Shown piece after piece: positions 10,388-20,459 of a stretch of DNA of 39,848 nt; position 1 is the stretch's first letter, and every line of letters begins with the position of its first letter. The translations under genes and the position numbers were made by a program. Source of the DNA: Acidobacteriota bacterium (GTDB lineage Bacteria; Acidobacteriota; UBA6911; JACOSC01); NCBI GenBank assembly GCA_016179055.1, contig JACOSC010000014.1:1-39848 (forward strand), written 5' to 3'. Below the pieces are notes generated by a model. It worked only from the letters and a program-made list of their open reading frames with translations, was not told the DNA's origin and searched no databases.

Positions 10388-10569
10388 TACCTGTTCACGG
10401 GGATCGGGGGTCAGGGATCAGAGGCTGCGGCCTGGAGGTGCTGTAAGGAATTATCGTGATTTAGAGATTGGGCAGTGGGGCGGATGCTTAAGGGATTACG
10501 GACGGTTTGGAAAAGAAATCCAACCAATATCGCCCGCCCCCCGTCCCCTGACCCCCGTGAACGGTTACG
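10388..10569. repeat. foldback repeat, family C (intact copy)
   Basis: A region of about 180 bp bounded by inverted arms. The left arm contains CTGTTCACGGGG followed by a GGGGGTCAGGG run; the right arm contains CCCCTGACCCCCGTGAAC then GGTTACG. A related but interrupted copy occurs at 35781-36646. It encodes no protein I can support. It lies in the gap of about 720 bp between the glycosyltransferase locus and the DUF4388 cluster. Confidence 0.65.
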
Positions 10570-10970: not shown

Positions 10971-11651
10971 ATGGCTATAATTGGGGAACTGAAGGATTTT
11001 GGGGTGGTGACCCTAATACAGCTCAACTGTATTGAACGAAAGAGCGCGCGTCTGACGATTAATTCTCAAGGAAAAGAAGCCGTTATATTTTTTGAGAATG
11101 GCGAGATTTCGCATGCCCAATATGCGGAACATACCGGGACCAAGGCGGTTCATCAAGCTTTAGCCATTAGCGACGGCTACTTTCGCTTGGAAGAAGGCAT
11201 TCTCCCTCATACACGAACCAATAAACTTCCCTGGATGCAAGTCGTCATGGAAGGCATACGCTTGCTCGACGAGCAGCGAGCGCATGCCGATAAGCGGCCT
11301 ATCGAAGAAAGGGTCGTTGAGGAATTGACAACCATTAAGGGAGTGGGGTGGGTTCTGCTAACCACGAGCGATGGATCCATCGTCGCTCATTCCGGACTGC
11401 AGACCCCGGAGCGCATCTCGGCGCTTATGGCCTTCTTCTGCGCCAAAGGACAGGCCATTGGCGGTAAGCTTAAGCTTGGTCGTACGCAACAATTAGCGTT
11501 GACCTGTTCTGATAATCAGGTCGTGATGCTCTTTCGGGAGAGTTATATTGTTGCCTTGCTTTTGGATTCACGGTCCTCCCTCGAGACTATTATTGAAGAA
11601 GCCACGGGGACCCTGCGCAGACATTTTCCGGAGCGCGTGCCGACCGCATGA
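10971..11651 (+). CDS. DUF4388 - Roadblock/LC7 fusion protein
   Basis: 226 residues, predicted cytosolic. Residues 1 to about 100 match the DUF4388 (PatA N-terminal-like) pattern: GELKDFGVVTLIQL, then ARLTIN, AVIFFENGEISHAQY, and GYFRLEEGI. Residues about 112-215 form a Roadblock/LC7 domain (GVGWVLLTTSDGSIVAHSG, then the strand-rich LALTCSDNQVVMLF and YIVALLLD). Roadblock proteins such as MglB act on small Ras-like GTPases or as dimerisation platforms, and DUF4388 is a signalling module of unknown biochemistry. No Ras-like GTPase is encoded in the window. Two related proteins and a membrane sensor follow on the same strand, suggesting one signalling unit. Confidence 0.8.
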   Translation: MAIIGELKDFGVVTLIQLNCIERKSARLTINSQGKEAVIFFENGEISHAQYAEHTGTKAVHQALAISDGYFRLEEGILPHTRTNKLPWMQVVMEGIRLLDEQRAHADKRPIEERVVEELTTIKGVGWVLLTTSDGSIVAHSGLQTPERISALMAFFCAKGQAIGGKLKLGRTQQLALTCSDNQVVMLFRESYIVALLLDSRSSLETIIEEATGTLRRHFPERVPTA

Positions 11652-11717
11652 CTTTCGATAATTAATTTGACAAGGCCTTGGTACACGATTCCGGTGACCC
11701 TCGGCTAGGAGTATTGA

Positions 11718-12260
11718 ATGTCTTTGGGTATATTCGGCCTGCTGGGCCATTCCGATAAAGAACGTCGCCTTGACGCTTGGATAGAACAAATCATTACTGA
11801 AATTAAGGCCGTAGAAGGCGTGAAAGGTGTTTTTCTCCTGAACCCACAAGGAGAAGTGTGCTATCCCTTTGACCAGGCCGATCATGCGCTCACGCCGCTT
11901 ATCGCCGAGGCGGCGTTGGACGTGGTGCAAGCTTTGGCGGTTTTCGAACTCACCGGAAACCCAATTCAAGAAGTAAAGCTCAACTACTCGGACGGGGTTC
12001 TTCTGATATACGACTGTCTGGGCTTGATGATCAAGACGCCAAAGGGGCTTGAAGAAGCCTGTCTGGTTATTCCCTGCAGCAAGGCTATCAATCGTCCTCA
12101 CTTACGCATGATTATGAAGGTGGCGTTAACCCGTGTGCAGAAAAACCAAAAAAATGGCCGAAATCGAACACCGGTTTCGCAATCCAAGGCGGCAACGCTT
12201 ACGCGAGTCAAAGTAGAACCCACATTGCACAAACTCCTCGATACGGTCCGCAGCGCCTGA
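11718..12260 (+). CDS. Roadblock/LC7-like protein
   Basis: 180 residues, predicted cytosolic. The start is fixed by AGGAG (11707-11711) six bases before ATG 11718. Residues about 18-135 look like a Roadblock/LC7 fold: helix (LDAWIEQIITEIKAVEGV), GVFLLNPQGEVCY hairpin, helix (AEAALDVVQALAVF), strands (EVKLNYSDGVLLIYDC) and a final helix. The last 40 residues form a basic tail (KNQKNGRNR). The family assignment rests on overall pattern and neighbourhood and is weaker than for the upstream gene. It could pair with the LC7 domain of the gene before it. Confidence 0.6.
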   Translation: MSLGIFGLLGHSDKERRLDAWIEQIITEIKAVEGVKGVFLLNPQGEVCYPFDQADHALTPLIAEAALDVVQALAVFELTGNPIQEVKLNYSDGVLLIYDCLGLMIKTPKGLEEACLVIPCSKAINRPHLRMIMKVALTRVQKNQKNGRNRTPVSQSKAATLTRVKVEPTLHKLLDTVRSA

Positions 12261-12288
12261 GAAAGGCGCTTCGGTAAGAAAATTTGGT

Positions 12289-12347
12289 TGGCGGATTTCA
12301 CAGTGATATTGGCAAAAATCCGCGTGTGCTCAGGCACCAATCCGCCA
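12289..12347. promoter_or_regulatory. inverted repeat in the spacer between two cluster genes
   Basis: TGGCGGATT (12289-12297) and AATCCGCCA (12339-12347) are perfect 9-base inverted repeats separated by 41 bases, ending 15 bases before ATG 12363. They could form a hairpin over the leader of the next gene or bind a protein. There is no T-run to suggest termination. Confidence 0.35.
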
Positions 12348-12362
12348 GCGCAATAGGATGCC

Positions 12363-13154
12363 ATGGCAGAAATACTCTCCGGCGATCTAACCAGCCTACG
12401 ACTAGTCGATATCCTTCGAGTCTTGAAGCTTAATTACAAAACCGGCCGATTGAACTTGAGTCATCAGAGCGGCAATGGCGAGATCTATGTGAACCGAGGC
12501 GATATTGTGCATGCGAGCTGGCGAGATTGTCAGGGAGAAGACGCGATCTATGTGATGTTGGCATGGTCAAAGGGCGCTTTCGTATTCGCCCCACTTCTGA
12601 CCACCGAGGCAACAACCCTGACAACATCGACCCAAGACATACTCGCCAAAGGCGACGTTATCGACAAGGAATGGGACGGCATTCGCGACGTCATTCCTTC
12701 ATGCGATACTGTTTTCAACAAAGCCGAAGCTCCCCCGGCCGATTTCCATCTGGCGGAGCTTGAACGGGCGATCCTACAGCAAGTTGATGGAAGCAGCACG
12801 ATAACCGATGTCGCGGACCGCCTCCAAAAAAGCGAACTGGAAACCTCGCGAGTAATCCGCAAGCTGTTCCTACTGGGGTTAATTGAGAACGCGGACAAAG
12901 GCATTGACCTCAAACTGGAGGCCACATTGGATGTGGCCGTCTTCGATGTAATTCAGCTTGAATTAACGAAAGTTATTGGACCGATCGCGCCCGTCATTCT
13001 CGCTGAGCAGATAGATCACATGGGGGAGTCCCAACACGCTTTTCCCAAGCACCGGCTGGCTGAATTAGCTGAGTTGTTAAGTCGGGAGATTCCGAGCGAG
13101 TCCAGGCAGATTCGCTTTCAGCAGGCCATGGTGCAGCTTCTGAAGAAAGTATGA
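12363..13154 (+). CDS. DUF4388 protein with winged-helix-like and C-terminal helical domains
   Basis: 263 residues. The N-terminal 95 or so are a DUF4388 domain (SGDLTSLRLVDILRVLKLN, GRLNLSHQSGNGEIYVNRG, DIVHASW, GAFVFAP). Residues about 128-182 look like a small winged-helix segment (LAELERAILQQVDGSSTI, SELETSRVIRKLFLLGLIE). The last 75 contain VIGPIAPVIL and LAELAELLSREIPSESR, a helical block I associate with the C-termini of similar DUF4388 proteins. AGGA just upstream supports ATG 12363. It is predicted cytosolic and probably works with the LC7 proteins encoded before it; function is unknown. Confidence 0.75.
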   Translation: MAEILSGDLTSLRLVDILRVLKLNYKTGRLNLSHQSGNGEIYVNRGDIVHASWRDCQGEDAIYVMLAWSKGAFVFAPLLTTEATTLTTSTQDILAKGDVIDKEWDGIRDVIPSCDTVFNKAEAPPADFHLAELERAILQQVDGSSTITDVADRLQKSELETSRVIRKLFLLGLIENADKGIDLKLEATLDVAVFDVIQLELTKVIGPIAPVILAEQIDHMGESQHAFPKHRLAELAELLSREIPSESRQIRFQQAMVQLLKKV

Positions 13155-13306
13155 GCCGTAGAAGGCATTCACAGGAAAGAATAGAGGAGAGCGTATTGGG
13201 GCAGTTACGATAGAAGTGGGGCAGGGTCTCATAGGCAAGAATGGAGGTCCGTCCTTGGGTTCATCTTGGCGTTACCATCTCTCACTTTTTTTGACTCGGA
13301 GGCAAC

Positions 13307-14557
13307 TTGGACATTAAGGTGACCCTTCGAACAAAGCTCTTGTTCTTTTCATTTCTCATTAGCGCGCTCCCGTTGCTTTCCCTGCTCACTTTCATTAGTT
13401 TTCAAATTCGCGCGCAAACCCAGCGTCGGATTCAAGAGAGTCTACGGGTCGACCTGAACGTAGCTCGGGGCCTGCTTGAGCAAAGGGTCGATGAAGTTCA
13501 AGCCATGGCTAGTTCCGTGGCTGACCTCGCGGCCTCCTACAATTTCGGCGGCCTGGCCGGAGGCTCTTCGGGTGGTTATGGAGCCTCCCACTCTACTGTA
13601 GGAACCCAGCGTGGGCGCGGAGGAATTCCCGCAACTCGGAGCCAGTTTTACGCGCTCATGGATCGCTTCCTTTCCAATTGGAAATTCGATACGCTCGTGA
13701 TTACGGATGCCCATGGCCGTGTTGTATACCGCGCCAACCAACCAGACAGCCTCCACGATGATCTCCACGGCCACGTTCTTGTAAGTAGTGCGCTACAGGG
13801 TAAGAAGGCCGGCGGCCTAATCAAAGAAGCGCCCGAGCGAGTGAACGCCGAGGGACTGCATGACCGGGCCCTGGTCAGCCGGAGCGGTCAGCCGCCACAG
13901 ACACCGGGCAGCAATCCCGCGGAGGCCGCCGGCATGTTCGTTGAAGCAGTGGCCCCGATTCTGGACATCGACGATAAGGTCATCGGTTGTGTTTTGACCG
14001 GGGACCTGCTGAATAACGATTTCACCTTAGTGGATGGAATTAGTGAAATTGTCTACCGGGACCGACCAGGTGTGGGCGCCGTTTCCATCACGCTCGATGA
14101 TTACATTATCAGCTCCAATCTCAACACCGGCGAAGGCAGAGCGCTTGGCCGAACGGTTCTCAGCGCTTACGACGGCATTGATAAGAAAGCCGGGTTGTTC
14201 AATTCCTGCGCGGGCGCCCAAGAGAGCCTAAAGGATCCAGGCGGCCAAGAAATAGGAAAGTTACACGTAGCCGTTAAGGCGTATTGGTACCAACAGTGGG
14301 AAAATGAGTTTCGCCGTCGAATTCTGCTCGTTACATTAAGCTTCCTACTATTCTTCCTGGCCATAGCTTATCTGGTTACGCGTCTCTTTACCCGTTCCAT
14401 CATTGATGTTGTTCACGCCTCTGATCGCGTCAGCCTGGGCGAGCTGGAGACGGTCGTACAAGCTACCACCGGGGATGAAGTTGAAGTCCTGGCCGAATCC
14501 ATCGAGAGGATGCGCTTGAGCCTCAAAGCCGCCTTGGATCGACTGAAAAGAGTGTAA
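13307..14557 (+). CDS. dCache-HAMP membrane sensor without an output domain
   Basis: 416 residues. The TTG start at 13307 is supported by GGAGG (13298-13302) four bases upstream. Order: short cytoplasmic N-terminus, transmembrane helix (about 11-32), periplasmic region (about 33-335) that looks like a double-Cache ligand sensor (FDTLVITDAHGRVVYRANQ; EAVAPILDIDDKVIGCVLTG), second helix (about 339-359), HAMP domain (about 360-412), then stop. No histidine kinase, methyl-accepting, GGDEF or phosphatase domain follows. A Gly/Ser-rich stretch (about 75-105) interrupts the sensor. The partner must be another protein, and the DUF4388/Roadblock proteins upstream are the obvious candidates by position. 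Confidence 0.8.
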   Translation: MDIKVTLRTKLLFFSFLISALPLLSLLTFISFQIRAQTQRRIQESLRVDLNVARGLLEQRVDEVQAMASSVADLAASYNFGGLAGGSSGGYGASHSTVGTQRGRGGIPATRSQFYALMDRFLSNWKFDTLVITDAHGRVVYRANQPDSLHDDLHGHVLVSSALQGKKAGGLIKEAPERVNAEGLHDRALVSRSGQPPQTPGSNPAEAAGMFVEAVAPILDIDDKVIGCVLTGDLLNNDFTLVDGISEIVYRDRPGVGAVSITLDDYIISSNLNTGEGRALGRTVLSAYDGIDKKAGLFNSCAGAQESLKDPGGQEIGKLHVAVKAYWYQQWENEFRRRILLVTLSFLLFFLAIAYLVTRLFTRSIIDVVHASDRVSLGELETVVQATTGDEVEVLAESIERMRLSLKAALDRLKRV

Positions 14558-15156
14558 GGAGACCCGTGCGTCAGGGGCAAGCCGTCCCCGCTTGGCGAAC
14601 CAATACGTCGTGAACCGCTACATTTTCTTTTCACCAACAATGGCGCTATTTTTTTCCTGCCTCCTCCTGTTCCTCTGATAATGACTCCAGCAAAACAGAA
14701 CCGAGAGCGGTAGCGACCGGGTATGTCTCGCCCATACTTACACGCTTCGGCCACCCGCCCGCTACCGCAGGCGGTTTTGTGTTGCAAAATTGAGCTTGAA
14801 AAGAACCTTATGTCGATTGGCAACGTCTTATTGGCTGACGGACTTGTATCAAGAATGCAGCGCTGAACTATTGATGATGAAAATGAACGCGTAAACGCTT
14901 ATAATTAGATTGTAGGTTAGCCGCCGTCAAAGGGGGCCCTATGATAGTTAGGATTATGAACCGATTGGTAAGCAGATTTATTCGTAGACTGAACACGGAC
15001 CTTTGCTGCTCCCTTCACCAAACTTCCGGCGCGATTCCAGAATCTTCAGCCCGGCCGCAAAACACGGAACCGCGAATAAGAATCTATGGGACAATCGGTC
15101 AGCTTTTGCTCGGCGGGTATTGCTGAGACCCCTTTGGGTGGCATAGGACGCAGGCT
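14558..15156. other. intergenic region of about 600 bp
   Basis: No gene is supported. A 61-codon frame at 14941-15126 has only a weak purine-rich leader and no recognisable family. The region holds one foldback repeat, listed separately. Confidence 0.4.
14695..14782. repeat. foldback repeat, family E
   Basis: The left arm reads ACAGAACCGAGAGCGGTAGC and continues GACCGGGT; the right arm is its imperfect reverse complement (CCACCCGCCCGCTACCGC, then a GGCGGTTTTGTGT end). A related element lies at 37629-37706, where the arm sequence appears in the opposite orientation. No coding capacity. Confidence 0.6.
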
Positions 15157-15633
15157 ATGACCACTGTCAGATACCTATACGTACTGTTTTTAGCCATTTG
15201 GCTCGGCAGCATGGTTTTTTTTAGTTTTGTGCTGGCCCCCACGGCATTTGCTCTGCTTCCCTCCCGTGATCTGGCGGGCAGCCTTGTCAATCTCTCCCTC
15301 GCAAAACTTCATAACCTCTCATACCTAATCGCACTCTTGCTGATGGCCTGCGGAGCATGGGCCTCTAAGGATCAGTCCAATCCGATTCGCCACTTCATTG
15401 CGACGAATGTCATCGTTATCGTCATGTTGCTTGTAACGATCGGCTCAGCTCAGATCGTGTCTAAACGCATAGCTGATGTCCGAATGCTGCTCGGCCCCAT
15501 CGATACCGTAGCGGTTACCCATCCCCTGCGATTGGAATTTAACCGCTTGCACGAATTTTCCGTGTGGCTCATGAGCTCAACTATGCTTCTTAGCGGGGCA
15601 CAGCTTTTTGTTGTGTTGAGAACGCTTCGATAA
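15157..15633 (+). CDS. DUF4149 / TMEM205-like membrane protein
   Basis: 158 residues with four predicted membrane helices: YLYVLFLAIWLGSMVFFSFVLAPTAF, LSYLIALLLMACGAWA, FIATNVIVIVMLLVTIGSA and SVWLMSSTMLLSGAQLFVVL. The N-terminal WLGSMVFFSFVLAPTAF and the late LRLEFNRLHEFSVWLM match the DUF4149 pattern, in which a short EFxRLHxxS stretch precedes the last helix. It acts in the inner membrane; function is unknown. It lies alone between a 600 bp gap and the PrkA trio. Confidence 0.7.
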   Translation: MTTVRYLYVLFLAIWLGSMVFFSFVLAPTAFALLPSRDLAGSLVNLSLAKLHNLSYLIALLLMACGAWASKDQSNPIRHFIATNVIVIVMLLVTIGSAQIVSKRIADVRMLLGPIDTVAVTHPLRLEFNRLHEFSVWLMSSTMLLSGAQLFVVLRTLR

Positions 15634-15805: not shown

Positions 15806-17710
15806 ATGGAAGATATCTTCAGCAAAATTGATGACCATCAGAAAAAACATAGAGTGGATAAGTGGGAGGGCACGTTCCGCGAGTACCTGCCCATGGTAAT
15901 ACAAAATCCTAAGTTGGCCCGACTCTCCCATGCCTACGTGTACGACGCCGTGCGCTCGTATGGAGTCGAGGTTGACAGTGAAGGGCGAGAACGATTCAGG
16001 TTCTTCGAAAGAGAAATCTTCGGCATTGACGAAGCGCTGGCCAAGGTTGTCGAGTATTTGAAGGCCGCCGCCATTGGCTCCGACGTGGGTAAACGGATCC
16101 TGATGATTTATGGCCCACCTTCCGCCGGAAAAAGCCAAATGGTGATCTTGCTGAAGCGGGGCCTGGAAGAATATTCACGCACGGATGAGGGCGCCATCTA
16201 TGCCATTGCCGATTGCCCGCAGCATGAGGATCCTTTGCACCTGCTCCCCCACAGCTTACGCAAGGACATGTTGGATGAATATCGTATCTACGTTGAAGGC
16301 GAGCTCTGTCCCATGTGCAGCGTGAACCTGAGAGAAAAGTATGAAAACGATATTCATCGCGTGCTCGTCAAGCGCATGTATCTTTCGGAAAAGGACCGGA
16401 TAGGGATTGGCACCTTCGTGCCCAGCGATCCAAAATCCCAGGACATTTCCGAGCTGGTCGGCAGCTTGGACTTAGCGACGGTCGGTGAATTCGGGGTGGA
16501 GTCGGATCCGCGCGCCTACCGCTTTGACGGTGAACTGAACATCGCCAACCGGGGAATGATTGAGTTTATCGAGATGTTCAAGGCGGACGAGCGCTTCCTC
16601 TATATTCTGCTCACCTTGACTCAGGAGCGCAATATCAAGATCGGGCGTTATTCGCTGATTTATGCCGATGAGTTCGTGATTGCCCACACCAATGAGACCG
16701 AGTTTCTTGAATTCTTGTCCGACAAGAAATCCGAAGCGCTGCGCGACCGTATGATCACCGTACAAATTCCCTACAATCTGCAGGTCAGCTCGGAAATGAA
16801 AATTTATGAAAAATTGCTCAAGCAGACCAATATCGGCGATATCCATATGGCGCCGCATACCATGAAAGTTGCGGCCATGTTTGCGGTGCTCTCCCGCCTG
16901 GAAGAACCCAAAATACCCGGCTTGACGCTTACCAAGAAAATGAAGCTGTACAATGGCGAGGATACGGAAGGCTTCCGCCCACAGGACGTCCGTCGCATCA
17001 AAGAGCAGACCGCGAGAGAAGGCATGGATGGGATTTCACCTAGATTCATTATCAATCGTATTTCTTCCGCCCTCATAAAACCGGGAACCATCTGTGTCAA
17101 CCCCATCGACGTGCTGCGCTCCATTAAGGAAGGTTTCGAAACGCATGGCTCCTTCAAGAAGGAAGATCGCGAGCGCGTGGATAATCTCATAGCCGATGTG
17201 CGCCGAGAGTACGATGAAATTGCGAGAACCGATGTACAGAAGGCGTTCTTCGTCTCGTTTGAAAAAGAGGCCTCTACGCTCATGGATAAATACCTAGATC
17301 ATGTAGAGGCTTACTTGGATAATCGAAAATTACTGGACCCGATCACTGAGGACGAGATCGAACCGGATGAGAAGCTCATGCGATCGATTGAAGAAAAAGT
17401 GAAAGTCTCGGAAAGCGGCAAGGATGCTTTTCGCAATGAGATCTTCCGCAAGGTCGCCTTCTCCCAGCGCAAAGGGGAAGGGTTCGACTATAAGACACAC
17501 GAGAAGCTGCGCGAGGCGATCGAGCGACAGCTTTTCGAGGAACGCCGCGATACGATCCGTCTTACCGTTTCCTCACGAAACCCAGACCAGGAACAACTGC
17601 GCAAGATCAATGAGGTGATTAACACGTTGGTGTCGCGCGAAGGCTATTGCACCGAGTGCGCCAACGAATTGCTCAAGTACGTCAGCAGCCTGTTGTCTCG
17701 GGAGAAATAG
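15806..17710 (+). CDS. prkA: PrkA family serine protein kinase (YeaG-like)
   Basis: 634 residues, close to the usual 630-650 of PrkA/YeaG. The N-terminal AAA-like part has Walker A GPPSAGKS (103-110) and the family segments EYLPMVIQNP (26-35) and GMIEFIEMFKADERFLY. A CPMC pair lies near 172-175, and a helical C-terminal region carries the proposed kinase part. PrkA is a cytosolic kinase linked to sporulation in Bacillus and to stress and nitrogen-starvation responses in enterobacteria. Strong GGAGG (15792-15796) precedes ATG 15806. Genes for a DUF444 protein and SpoVR follow, the conserved three-gene arrangement. I infer a stationary-phase or stress module. Confidence 0.93.
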   Translation: MEDIFSKIDDHQKKHRVDKWEGTFREYLPMVIQNPKLARLSHAYVYDAVRSYGVEVDSEGRERFRFFEREIFGIDEALAKVVEYLKAAAIGSDVGKRILMIYGPPSAGKSQMVILLKRGLEEYSRTDEGAIYAIADCPQHEDPLHLLPHSLRKDMLDEYRIYVEGELCPMCSVNLREKYENDIHRVLVKRMYLSEKDRIGIGTFVPSDPKSQDISELVGSLDLATVGEFGVESDPRAYRFDGELNIANRGMIEFIEMFKADERFLYILLTLTQERNIKIGRYSLIYADEFVIAHTNETEFLEFLSDKKSEALRDRMITVQIPYNLQVSSEMKIYEKLLKQTNIGDIHMAPHTMKVAAMFAVLSRLEEPKIPGLTLTKKMKLYNGEDTEGFRPQDVRRIKEQTAREGMDGISPRFIINRISSALIKPGTICVNPIDVLRSIKEGFETHGSFKKEDRERVDNLIADVRREYDEIARTDVQKAFFVSFEKEASTLMDKYLDHVEAYLDNRKLLDPITEDEIEPDEKLMRSIEEKVKVSESGKDAFRNEIFRKVAFSQRKGEGFDYKTHEKLREAIERQLFEERRDTIRLTVSSRNPDQEQLRKINEVINTLVSREGYCTECANELLKYVSSLLSREK

Positions 17711-17719
17711 GAAAGTTTC

Positions 17720-17745
17720 GGTCCGCGGCCTTCGGTGCGCGGACC
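17720..17745. promoter_or_regulatory. GC-rich hairpin in the prkA-yeaH spacer
   Basis: GGTCCGCG and CGCGGACC form a perfect 8-bp stem around GCCTTCGGTG, starting 10 bases after the prkA stop. There is no T-run, so it is more likely a message-stability or processing element, or a leaky attenuator, than a full terminator. Confidence 0.5.
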
Positions 17746-17795
17746 CATCCGTATAGCACGGTGGCCGGGCGTCGCGGTTAACAGAAGGCGCGCAT

Positions 17796-18956
17796 ATGAA
17801 GATGCAACAGATACCTTGGGACTTACGGCGGCGAGGTCTCAAAGACAGCATAAGGCACGACAAACGGGTCAAGGATGCCATCCGTAAAAATCTGAAAGAA
17901 CTTATTGCCGAGGAAAACATTATCACTTCGGACGGCAAGAAGTTGGTGAAGATCCCGCTGAAATACCTGGATCAATACCGATTTCGTTACGGCACGCCCG
18001 GCAATGCGACCGGACAAGGCAAAGGCCAACCCGGCGATGTTATTGCCCGCGATAGCGCTAATGCGCCGGGCATGGGTCCGCCTGGCGACAATCCCGGCGG
18101 TGATATCTATGAAGCCGAAATTTCCCTCGAAGAACTGACGAACATGATGCTGGCCGACCTGGCGCTGCCTTGGTTTGAAGACAAGAAAACCCATCAAATT
18201 AAAACCACCACGTACCGCTACGACGAGATTCGAACTAAAGGCCCGATGTCGAACATCGACAAGCGCCGTACGCTCCTAGAAAACATCAAGCGCAATGCCG
18301 CCAAGAGTGAGCCCAAGGTCGCCGACCTGTGCGAAGAAGATTTGCGCTTTCGAGTTTGGAGCGTCAAAGAAGAGTTGCAAGCCAACGCCTGCGTTTATTT
18401 GCTCATGGACCGATCCGGCAGCATGACCACGGAGAAAAAGTATATTGCCAAGAGCTTCTTCTTCTGGATGGTACGTTTTCTTAAATTGAAATATAATACG
18501 GTCGATTTGGTATTCATCGCCCATGACGTTGAGGCGCGCGTGGTTCCGGAAAAGGATTTTTTCACGATCAGCAATAGCGGAGGCACCTTGTGCTCCTCCG
18601 CCTATCAGGTTGCCCTGGATCATTTAAAGAAGTGCCATCCGCGCGATAACTGGAACAATTACCTCTTTCACTTCTCCGACGGGGAAAACCAGGAAGAAGA
18701 CAATTCAACGTGCAAGGATCTGATTCAAGACTTGCTCACTCATTGCACCATGATCGGTTATGGCGAAATCAACTATCAGGATGACGCCTCCTTCTATGGA
18801 TTAGTGAAGCCGTATAGTCCGCATTGGAGCACGCTCTACAAGGAGTTAAAAACCGTCGATAGCAAGCGGTTTATTACCACCATCATTAAGCAAAAAGAAG
18901 ATGTGCACAATGCGCTGCAACATTTTTTTAGCCGCAAAGAAGCGCGGCGGCAGTAG
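17796..18956 (+). CDS. yeaH: DUF444 / YeaH family protein with VWA-like domain
   Basis: 386 residues, slightly shorter than the ~430 of E. coli YeaH. The N-terminus is basic and helical (LRRRGLKDSIRHDKRVKDAIRK). A Gly/Pro-rich linker (about 66-102) follows, then a von Willebrand A-like domain with the MIDAS-type motif DRSGSM (205-210). The VDLVFIAHDVEA and HFSDGENQ segments are typical of the family. Its partners are the PrkA kinase upstream and SpoVR downstream; the molecular job is not established. AAGG lies before ATG 17796. A GC-rich hairpin occurs on each side of the gene. Confidence 0.9.
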   Translation: MKMQQIPWDLRRRGLKDSIRHDKRVKDAIRKNLKELIAEENIITSDGKKLVKIPLKYLDQYRFRYGTPGNATGQGKGQPGDVIARDSANAPGMGPPGDNPGGDIYEAEISLEELTNMMLADLALPWFEDKKTHQIKTTTYRYDEIRTKGPMSNIDKRRTLLENIKRNAAKSEPKVADLCEEDLRFRVWSVKEELQANACVYLLMDRSGSMTTEKKYIAKSFFFWMVRFLKLKYNTVDLVFIAHDVEARVVPEKDFFTISNSGGTLCSSAYQVALDHLKKCHPRDNWNNYLFHFSDGENQEEDNSTCKDLIQDLLTHCTMIGYGEINYQDDASFYGLVKPYSPHWSTLYKELKTVDSKRFITTIIKQKEDVHNALQHFFSRKEARRQ

Positions 18957-18976
18957 TCCAATACGGGACGGCGCTC

Positions 18977-19006
18977 GGCGGCCGCGTTCACGAAAGACGC
19001 GCCGCC
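18977..19006. promoter_or_regulatory. GC-rich hairpin in the yeaH-spoVR spacer
   Basis: GGCGGC-C-GCGT pairs with ACGCGCCGCC (10 bp with one bulged C) around a 9-base loop. It mirrors the hairpin in the preceding spacer and may set relative expression within the trio. Confidence 0.45.
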
Positions 19007-19073
19007 CGCCATGAACGGCAAAAACCGCTCGGGGAAATCAAGGGCCAAGGCAATTATTAAGGTATAACCCGCT

Positions 19074-20459
19074 ATGAGTTTTCCGGAACAAAGAGCCAAT
19101 GCGATAAAAGAACTGGCGACCGATTTGGGGCTGGATTTCTTTGAAACGATCTTTGAGATCGTTCCGTTTGATATTATGGTCGAGATCGCCGCCTATGGCC
19201 TGCCCACACGCGCCCAGCACTGGTCTTACGGCAAGGTCTACAACCGCGAGCGCATCCACGGTCAAATGGGACTTTCCAAGATCTATGAGATCGTGCTCAA
19301 CAATATCCCGGCGTACGCCTTCCTGCTGGACACCAACAGCGATGTCACGAACCTGCTGGTGGCCGCGCACGTGTATGCCCACGTTGACTTCTTCAAAAAC
19401 AATATATACTTTGCCGATACTAATCGCAATATGGTCAATGAGGCGGTTGAGCACGCCATTCTGATTGATGAGTTCATTGAAAAATACGGCCTCGAAGCCG
19501 TGGAACACGTCATGGACATCGGCTTTGCCGTCGACCGCCATGTCGATGTTCACAAGGGTCTCCAACGCAAACCCTATCCGCCGCGCCAGGTCGTGGAGCA
19601 AGTCCGCAAGGTTAAAGAATACGAAGACATTTTCGGGGACGATGCGTTCATGGTGTCGCGGGCGGTCGTTGGCGGGAAGATGCCCCCGCACCCGGAAAAG
19701 GACCTGTTATGGTTTCTTGCTACCTATGCGCCGATTGAACCTTGGGAGCAATCGGTATTGGAGATCATCCGCAAAGAGTCCATGTACTTTTATCCACAGT
19801 TCGAAACCAAAATTCTCAACGAGGGCTGGGCCAGTTACTGGCATGCCGAGGTAATCAACCATTATCTCTTAACGCCGGGAGAGATGATTGAGTTCGGCGT
19901 CCTCCACTCGGATGTAGTAAACCCCGGCGGGCGCATGGGCGTCAACCCTTATTATCTGGGATACAAGATCCTGGTTGACATCGAGAAACGCTGGGACAAG
20001 ATGTATGCCGACGGCGAGTCAAAGATCACTGGAAAACAAAAAATATTTGAGATCCGCACGCTCGAGAACGATGTTTCCTTTCTGCGCAATTATCTCACCA
20101 AAGAATTAGCGGAGAAATTAGAGCTGTTTACGTATGGATATGCGTGTGATCATCATCCGCACAACAAGCGACTTTGTCCGAAATGCGGCGAGATCGCGGT
20201 GAAGAGCCGATCGCTCGACGACGTGGTTGAAAGCTTAATCGCCACGCGCTTCAATTACGGCGTACCACGTATTCTTATACGCGAGATCAGCAGCGACGGC
20301 ACCATGTACTTAGAGCAAGAGCGCAGCGATCATCGCGGCCTTGATATGAAATACTCCCAAAAAACCATCGATTACGTCCATCAACTTTGGAAGCGCCCTG
20401 TGCACATGGTAGCGCGCAATGAGCAAATGAAAGAGGTTACGATCCGCTCCAGCACCTAA
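19074..20459 (+). CDS. SpoVR family protein (YcgB-like)
   Basis: 461 residues; the family usually runs 450-520. Diagnostic blocks are the early FYETIFEI-type segment (FFETIFEIVPFDIM), YGLPTRAQHWSYGKVY, HVYAHVDFFKNN, HPEKDLLWFLATYAPIEPWE and ILNEGWASYWHAEVI. The last is rich in conserved Glu/His, as expected of a zincin-like or metal-binding core. SpoVR affects spore cortex formation in Bacillus; in Gram-negatives it accompanies PrkA and DUF444 proteins in a stress module. It is predicted cytosolic. A near-C-terminal CDHHPHNKRLCPKCGE segment looks like a metal site. Foldback repeats follow the stop. Confidence 0.92.
   Translation: MSFPEQRANAIKELATDLGLDFFETIFEIVPFDIMVEIAAYGLPTRAQHWSYGKVYNRERIHGQMGLSKIYEIVLNNIPAYAFLLDTNSDVTNLLVAAHVYAHVDFFKNNIYFADTNRNMVNEAVEHAILIDEFIEKYGLEAVEHVMDIGFAVDRHVDVHKGLQRKPYPPRQVVEQVRKVKEYEDIFGDDAFMVSRAVVGGKMPPHPEKDLLWFLATYAPIEPWEQSVLEIIRKESMYFYPQFETKILNEGWASYWHAEVINHYLLTPGEMIEFGVLHSDVVNPGGRMGVNPYYLGYKILVDIEKRWDKMYADGESKITGKQKIFEIRTLENDVSFLRNYLTKELAEKLELFTYGYACDHHPHNKRLCPKCGEIAVKSRSLDDVVESLIATRFNYGVPRILIREISSDGTMYLEQERSDHRGLDMKYSQKTIDYVHQLWKRPVHMVARNEQMKEVTIRSST

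Follow-up and report, generated by a model that had tools for sequence, protein, structure and literature searches.

The genes P1, P2, P3, and P4 of this Acidobacteriota bacterium are all found on the forward strand at positions 10971–14557 of the window—the whole analyzed stretch of DNA, 39.8 kb in length—and form a real conserved unit, the grouping of which is not due to chance. The locus is probably a receptor-to-GTPase input module acting on the Ras-like MglA. The cassette is kept across phyla, often beside MglA, which suggests a new route by which bacteria could couple an external signal to a small GTPase. A preceding sequence-only reading had described the locus as two DUF4388 proteins, two Roadblock-type domains, and a membrane sensor without output on one strand; this composition is confirmed by Pfam and by fold comparison.

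Gene layout and conservation of the cassette

P1 (226 aa; 10971–11651, + strand) is a DUF4388-Roadblock/LC7 protein. Its DUF4388 domain, of the PATAN family, spans about 10983–11276 (Pfam, E = 4e-20, 72 bits at a cut-off of 25), and its Robl_LC7 domain spans about 11307–11552 (Pfam, E = 4e-6, above the Pfam cut-off). As judged by the orthologue alignment, P1 of the Acidobacteriota carries DUF4388 at its N-terminal start and features no receiver domain. P2 (180 aa; 11718–12260, + strand) is a stand-alone Roadblock-fold protein. P2 itself matches no Pfam or NCBIfam family, and 5 of its 16 orthologues match Robl_LC7 in Pfam (best E = 1.5e-4). Comparison of its AlphaFold model with the PDB by Foldseek yields 66 matches at E ≤ 1e-3, the best 50 of which are roadblock-type proteins or complexes holding them (Roadblock/MglB/Ragulator). 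P2 is counted as a Roadblock fold because the model and Foldseek resolve what the family profiles missed.

The remaining two genes encode P3 (263 aa; 12363–13154, + strand), which combines DUF4388 with a winged-helix-like stretch and a STAC-like domain, and P4 (416 aa; 13307–14557, + strand), a Cache-HAMP receptor without an output domain. P4 starts with a TTG codon preceded by the ribosome-binding-like GGAGG at 13298–13302 (+ strand), as read from the sequence. The PrkA-YhbH-SpoVR genes downstream were considered as further members of the system and set aside, being missing from two fully read acidobacterial cassette neighborhoods.

Full-length P3 orthologues occur in 16 cases among 396 Acidobacteriota genomes, and all 16 lie in a cassette of the same order and on the same strand, led in each case by a P1 orthologue. 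The co-occurrence of the sensor with the other three genes, on which the sequence-only reading had staked its proposal, hence holds. The same gene order is found at 15 named acidobacterial loci, some of them cut by contig ends. Most of the 16 acidobacterial cassettes contain an extra gene, P5; its Pfam comparison with the archaeal DUF2226 gives an E of 0.07, and this link is not used. The core of the cassette is also present in Calditrichota, in Desulfobacterota, and on one contig labelled Chloroflexi. Since the STAC-like domain occurs in only 2 of 350 Chloroflexi genomes, the Chloroflexi case is rare, transferred, or mislabelled.

The receptor tail and the STAC-like domain

P4 consists of dCache_3 and HAMP, after which the protein ends; the dimerization and catalytic domains of kinases are absent. 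The HAMP domain (PF00672, residues 356–407; 14372–14527, + strand) together with the tail has Af1503 as its best PDB match (E = 3e-13). P4 thus shows both features of an Af1503-type receptor: HAMP as the sole cytosolic domain, without effector, and a HAMP related to that of Af1503. The conserved C-terminal tail (RMRLSLKAALDRL; 14507–14545, + strand), a proposed docking helix, follows the pattern RMRxSLKxAxxRL. Its signature is present in 58/58 receptors, each of which ends 3–10 residues past it. The last 12 residues are the most conserved part of P4, the tail having a mean identity of 81% as compared with 28% in the sensor. A conventional kinase fused to orthologues of the sensor, which would have spoken against the sequence-only reading, is seen in none of the 58 receptors. 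Histidine kinases with a similar Cache-HAMP arrangement were rejected as P4 orthologues: They are paralogues encoded away from the cassette and do not have the tail motif.

In P3, DUF4388 is matched in Pfam at E = 1e-17 (64 bits; cut-off 25) and is followed by a weak Pfam match to a winged helix. The AlphaFold model features, in addition, a C-terminal four-helix domain that the earlier reading overlooked (12933–13148, + strand), with helices at residues 191–205, 209–219, 229–240, and 246–262. A GP motif (IGPIA; 12975–12989, + strand) separates helix 1 from helix 2, and the hairpins are nine residues apart, in agreement with the description of Af1502 (PMC4834066). In helix order, the model agrees with the definition of STAC: a pair of hairpins and an LGPx(x)A motif placed between the first and second helix. 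The domain matches no Pfam or NCBIfam family. Its top PDB match with two profiles is Af1502, at weak E values of 0.003 and 0.0076 and with Tctex dynein light chains close behind (E = 0.015–0.034). Foldseek with the full-length P3 model gives no match at E ≤ 0.001, and 5a1q is absent from the best 50 matches listed. The receptor gene adjoins the STAC-like gene in every acidobacterial and Calditrichota locus and in most Desulfobacterota loci. The Af1502 gene likewise adjoins Af1503, and the STAC family occurs beside such receptors (PMC4834066).

The proposed mechanism starts with the Cache domain of P4, which would sense a putative ligand outside the cell. The P4 dimer would carry the signal across the membrane, where it would alter the HAMP bundle. 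The output would then be the HAMP tail instead of a kinase, with P3 predicted to receive the tail at its STAC-like C-terminal domain. Direct contact of HAMP with DUF4388 or LC7 partners, as first suggested, is in line with the conservation of the P4 tail and the presence of a STAC-like domain in P3, although the contact itself is a predicted one. P3, P1, and P2—joined by P5 in most relatives—may form a DUF4388/Roadblock complex recruited to the membrane. This complex would alter the nucleotide state or the location of MglA/MglB by a putative GAP or GEF action, in either the on or the off direction. MglA-GTP would finally act on its effectors, of which type IV pili or polarity are the likeliest. 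In a wider, tentative reading that falls somewhat short of an even chance, binding of a HAMP tail to STAC would be a general phosphorylation-free receptor output: In bacteria it would feed a DUF4388/Roadblock complex setting the state of MglA, and Af1503-like archaeal receptors would use the same relay. Archaeal genes of the Af1503 type are reported to lie close to transporters, an arrangement that hints at a different function of STAC (PMC4834066).

Linkage to MglA and alternative readings

MglA and MglB are not encoded in the 39.8-kb window, and mglBA is not found in the 5–17 kb stretches around the other acidobacterial cassettes; the MglA link for this genome therefore rests on relatives. 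In Calditrichota, mglBA is part of the same operon at 22/23 loci, with mglA on the same strand as the STAC-like gene and 1.3–1.4 kb away from it, and the remaining locus is cut by a contig end inside mglB. In Desulfobacterota, mglA lies within 0.6–3.0 kb of the STAC-like gene at 12/22 loci. Genomic linkage is what ties the cassette to a putative role as GAP or GEF of MglA. MglA is present in 23/23 cassette genomes tested as compared with 264/396 Acidobacteriota overall; since many Acidobacteriota have MglA without the cassette, its presence in 16/16 is only mildly informative, and these cases are not phylogenetically independent. The PilT family is found in 23/25 genomes tested, with three copies in this genome. 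The absence of a GTPase, as noted before, holds solely within the window; the genome search locates mglB-mglA on another contig. A GTPase-free system is not supported: mglBA lies inside or beside the cassette in two other phyla.

This linkage also bears on a GTPase-independent reading, in which the HAMP receptor acts via DUF4388/LC7 on another target—for instance the motor of type IV pili or, via the winged helix of P3, transcription—and MglA is a bystander. The winged-helix-like stretch and the lack of mglBA near any acidobacterial cassette favor it, as does the fact that DUF4388 (PATAN) response regulators are tied to pilus control in cyanobacteria. It is nevertheless unlikely, given that the linkage to mglBA is fixed in Calditrichota and frequent in Desulfobacterota and that every cassette genome tested has MglA. 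Neighborhood by descent alone, without a functional unit, is highly improbable and already contradicted: The order is kept across phyla, and cassette genes overlap or nearly touch in several relatives, although the gaps within P1–P4 of the window amount to 66–152 bases and promoter and terminator scans yield sites at near-chance numbers, with no clear shared promoter found.

Two further readings carry an equally low probability, clearly below that of the GTPase-independent one. In one, the receptor and the STAC-like domain would regulate membrane transport, comparable to the proposal for archaeal STAC, with the Roadblock and DUF4388 proteins as scaffolds. No recurrent transporter lies beside the cassette in the window or in the fully read acidobacterial loci; nonetheless, many Calditrichota loci have an MFS gene after mglA, the STAC of CbrA docks on a transporter, and transporters are reported in the vicinity of STAC and Af1503 (PMC4834066). 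In the other, a histidine kinase would phosphorylate REC or REC-DUF4388-LC7 partners and the receptor would merely tune this. Just upstream, nearly all Calditrichota loci encode a receiver protein together with a histidine kinase, and P1 bears a receiver domain in several Desulfobacterota loci and in the "Chloroflexi" locus, but the P1 of Acidobacteriota starts with DUF4388 and the window has no histidine kinase next to the cassette. The earlier label of kinase-free signaling consequently applies to the window and to the sensor orthologues and is not general, as Calditrichota add these two proteins. The input to MglA remains the preferred reading.

Comparison with known systems

The closest counterpart is the Af1503/Af1502 (STAC) pair of Archaeoglobus fulgidus (PDB 4gn0, 2l7h, and 5a1q; PMC4834066). 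The cytosolic part of Af1503 is HAMP alone, with a tail of the kind seen in P4 (ERLRRSLKVAME). Af1502 resembles P3 in being a neighboring gene with a small four-helix domain and (I/L)GPxA between helices 1 and 2, with a weak sequence similarity (E = 0.003–0.008). Unlike Af1502, the STAC-like domain here is fused to a winged helix and DUF4388 beside Roadblock proteins, and its relatives are mglBA-linked; the archaeal pair, unlike the cassette, is reported near transporters. The literature search found no paper on DUF4388 together with roadblock, and among the papers listed none joins Af1503 with roadblock or MglB. The HAMP of Af1503 is a founding structure for receptor signal relay, and Af1503 has no known effector; the locus and its relatives suggest the STAC-like domain as a partner for such a receptor and an MglA-type GTPase as the final target. 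If true, MglA, which regulates polarity and pili, would gain a direct phosphorylation-free transmembrane input in Acidobacteriota. The proposed HAMP-tail/STAC/MglA relay is approachable with small soluble proteins.

The polarity module of Myxococcus (MglA/MglB with RomR/RomX/RomY) pairs the Ras-like MglA with the Roadblock GAP MglB, and mglBA is also present in this genome. The input described for it comes from the Frz chemosensory system and RomR, in contrast to the output-less HAMP receptor with DUF4388 and STAC-like partners. Roadblock proteins are often components of larger GAP or GEF complexes (PMC9481161). In the conservons CvnABCD of Actinomycetota, one operon encodes a HAMP membrane sensor, a Roadblock protein, and a further small protein together with a GTPase of the MglA family (PMC4316618). 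The histidine kinase CvnA bears an LPxR motif at its C-terminus (PMC4316618), whereas P4 stops after HAMP and the cassette adds DUF4388 and a STAC-like domain. Two features of conservons are absent here: The window has no MglA-family GTPase gene, and P4 has no histidine kinase core. The passages on PATAN and mglA/mglB, according to which PATAN genes occasionally neighbor mglA of Groups 1 and 5, describe neither the receptor nor the STAC-like domain nor a fixed gene order (PMC4316618).

The four-gene cassette and its conservation

The cassette consists of four forward-strand genes, which are real and lie where the sequence-only reading had placed them. P1 (10971–11651) joins DUF4388 to a C-terminal Roadblock/LC7 domain, and P2 (11718–12260) is Roadblock-type as judged by orthologue matches and its AlphaFold model. 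P3 (12363–13154) combines DUF4388 with a winged-helix-like stretch and ends in a domain of ~75 residues (12933–13148) that the reading had not described. P4 (13307–14557) is a dCache_3-type sensor followed by a HAMP domain, where the protein stops. A Pfam search of P2 itself matched no family; Robl_LC7 is matched by 5 of 16 P2 orthologues, and the model has 66 PDB matches at E ≤ 1e-3, with MglB, Ragulator, and other roadblock-type structures among the matches listed.

The host genome, an acidobacterial draft of 5.3 Mb in 334 contigs, is one of 16 among 396 Acidobacteriota genomes in which a P3 profile search found full-length orthologues. All 16 keep the order P1-(P5)-P2-P3-P4 on a single strand, with intergenic gaps often below 30 bases or overlapping genes. 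P5, with weak DUF4388 similarity, occurs in 13 of these cassettes but not in the window. Scanning named genomes yielded 15 acidobacterial loci, including Chloracidobacterium and Blastocatellia—some on contigs already in the 16-genome set—with identical order wherever contig extent permits. The core is also present in Calditrichota, Desulfobacterota, and one contig labelled Chloroflexi; hence, the genes proposed to form one signalling system do co-occur in related genomes.

The 0.7-kb gap upstream of P1 holds an imperfect 29-nt inverted repeat (10388–10567, 79% complementary, 122 nt apart), a candidate mobile or palindromic element. Downstream of P4 lies an inverted repeat with 33-nt arms (14690–14785, 79% complementary) containing a terminator-like hairpin (14759–14774). 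A gene for a DUF4149 membrane protein (15157–15633) then precedes consecutive PrkA kinase, DUF444/YhbH, and SpoVR-like genes (15806–17710, 17796–18956, and 19074–20459; together 15806–20459).

The receptor tail and the C-terminal domain of P3

Across 13 non-redundant Acidobacteriota, the P4 sensor has a mean pairwise identity of 28%, HAMP helix 2 one of 66%, and the final 12 residues one of 81%. A tail signature, defined as a regular expression built on RMRxSLKxAxxRL, lies 3–10 residues before the protein end in 58 of 58 receptors from three phyla and the Chloroflexi-labelled contig, and is absent from 10 of 10 kinases with a similar Cache-HAMP. Sensors vary by phylum (dCache_3, Cache_3-Cache_2, sCache_3, and Tar-like) and the tail is constant, as would be expected of a docking helix whose partner does not change. 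Among solved HAMP domains, that of Af1503 is the nearest (E 3e-13); Af1503 is an archaeal receptor without recognisable effector whose HAMP is its sole cytosolic part (PMC4834066). Both proteins carry a tail of the same kind and lack output beyond HAMP. Some Desulfobacterota receptors bear an N-terminal zinc ribbon ahead of the first transmembrane helix (loci L107, 2259–3464; L230, 9700–10917; and L239, 7614–8657).

Within the motif (I/V/L/M)GPxA of the P3 C-terminal domain, the GP is invariant. Two profiles built from different sequences, one Acidobacteriota-led (A9) and one from Calditrichota and Desulfobacterota (A10), share as top match among 177,635 PDB sequences Af1502 (5a1q), with E of 0.003 and 0.0076. 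Af1502, whose gene adjoins that of Af1503, is a STAC domain: its four-helix bundle is made up of two hairpins joined by a nine-residue linker, and LGPx(x)A sits between helices 1 and 2 (PMC4834066). The P3 model likewise has four helices; the GP motif falls between the first two, and nine residues separate helices 2 and 3. From profiles and model, the domain is likely a STAC member, sharing helical plan, motif position, and linker with Af1502; membership is not proven, because the match is weak by sequence alone and Tctex-type dynein light chains rank just behind Af1502 among PDB matches (E 0.015–0.034). The Tctex match is probably due to chance, though curious beside Roadblock/LC7. The best argument for the STAC assignment is that the independent P4 and P3 searches end at two adjoining genes of one archaeal operon.

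One further acidobacterial genome (G057) encodes a protein that joins a STAC-like domain directly to LC7, next to another HAMP protein lacking an output; this locus (L041, contig C4, 2302–10940) also encodes a Ser/Thr kinase with an AAA domain, several Roadblock-type proteins, and a receiver-DUF4388 protein.

Linkage to MglA

No MglA was found in the window or around any fetched acidobacterial cassette. The claim that no GTPase is encoded hence holds for the window but not for the genome, where contig C239 carries a canonical mglA with an MglB-like gene immediately before it. MglA is present in 23 of 23 cassette genomes tested and in 264 of the 396 Acidobacteriota genomes sampled; thus, the cassette without MglA was never seen, and MglA without the cassette is common. 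MglA-like domains in open frames of ~750–790 residues, possible fusions, occur in six cassette-bearing genomes (G052:C218, G065:C99, G077:C139, G089:C212, G100:C153, and G110:C269).

The strongest link comes from phyla other than Acidobacteriota. The P3 domain is present in 40 of 40 Calditrichota genomes, and in 22 of 23 loci read it is followed with P4 by mglB and mglA, the latter 1.3–1.4 kb from the P3-domain gene on the same strand; the remaining locus is cut inside mglB by the contig end. In Desulfobacterota, the domain occurs in 43 of 297 genomes, and mglA lies on the same strand within ~3.0 kb in 12 of 22 loci read, several of the others running out at contig ends. By our estimate, assuming one to two mglA per ~4 Mb genome, chance would give such closeness in no more than ~1% of loci.

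A probable receptor module for MglA

The system had been proposed to be kinase-free. This stands for the receptors, all 58 of which end 3–10 residues past the tail without a kinase, but it is not general: in nearly all Calditrichota loci, genes for a histidine kinase and a receiver protein directly precede the cassette, and in several Desulfobacterota loci as well as L103, the Chloroflexi-labelled locus, P1 itself includes a receiver domain. In the Calditrichota loci with kinase and receiver, an MFS transporter often follows mglA (L105, L106, L108, and L202–L221).

The cassette is most likely a receptor module for MglA. In the route that we infer, contacts and sign of effect included, ligand would act on the P4 dimer, the signal would reach the HAMP tail and pass to the STAC-like domain of P3, and from there to a DUF4388/Roadblock complex that would activate or inhibit MglA. 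In Myxococcus and in eukaryotes, Roadblock proteins act in GAP or GEF complexes that control small GTPases (PMC9481161). DUF4388 is the PATAN family. PATAN genes have been mentioned near mglA, and conservons are operons that combine a sensor, a Roadblock protein, and a GTPase (PMC4316618). A literature search, with subscription journals mostly outside it, returned no paper joining an output-less HAMP receptor, a STAC-like domain, DUF4388/Roadblock proteins, and MglA. For receptors of the Af1503 type, the module suggests a specific effector path that can be put to the test. PilT-family genes occur in 23 of the 25 genomes examined, with three copies in the window's genome, which fits a type IV pilus output.
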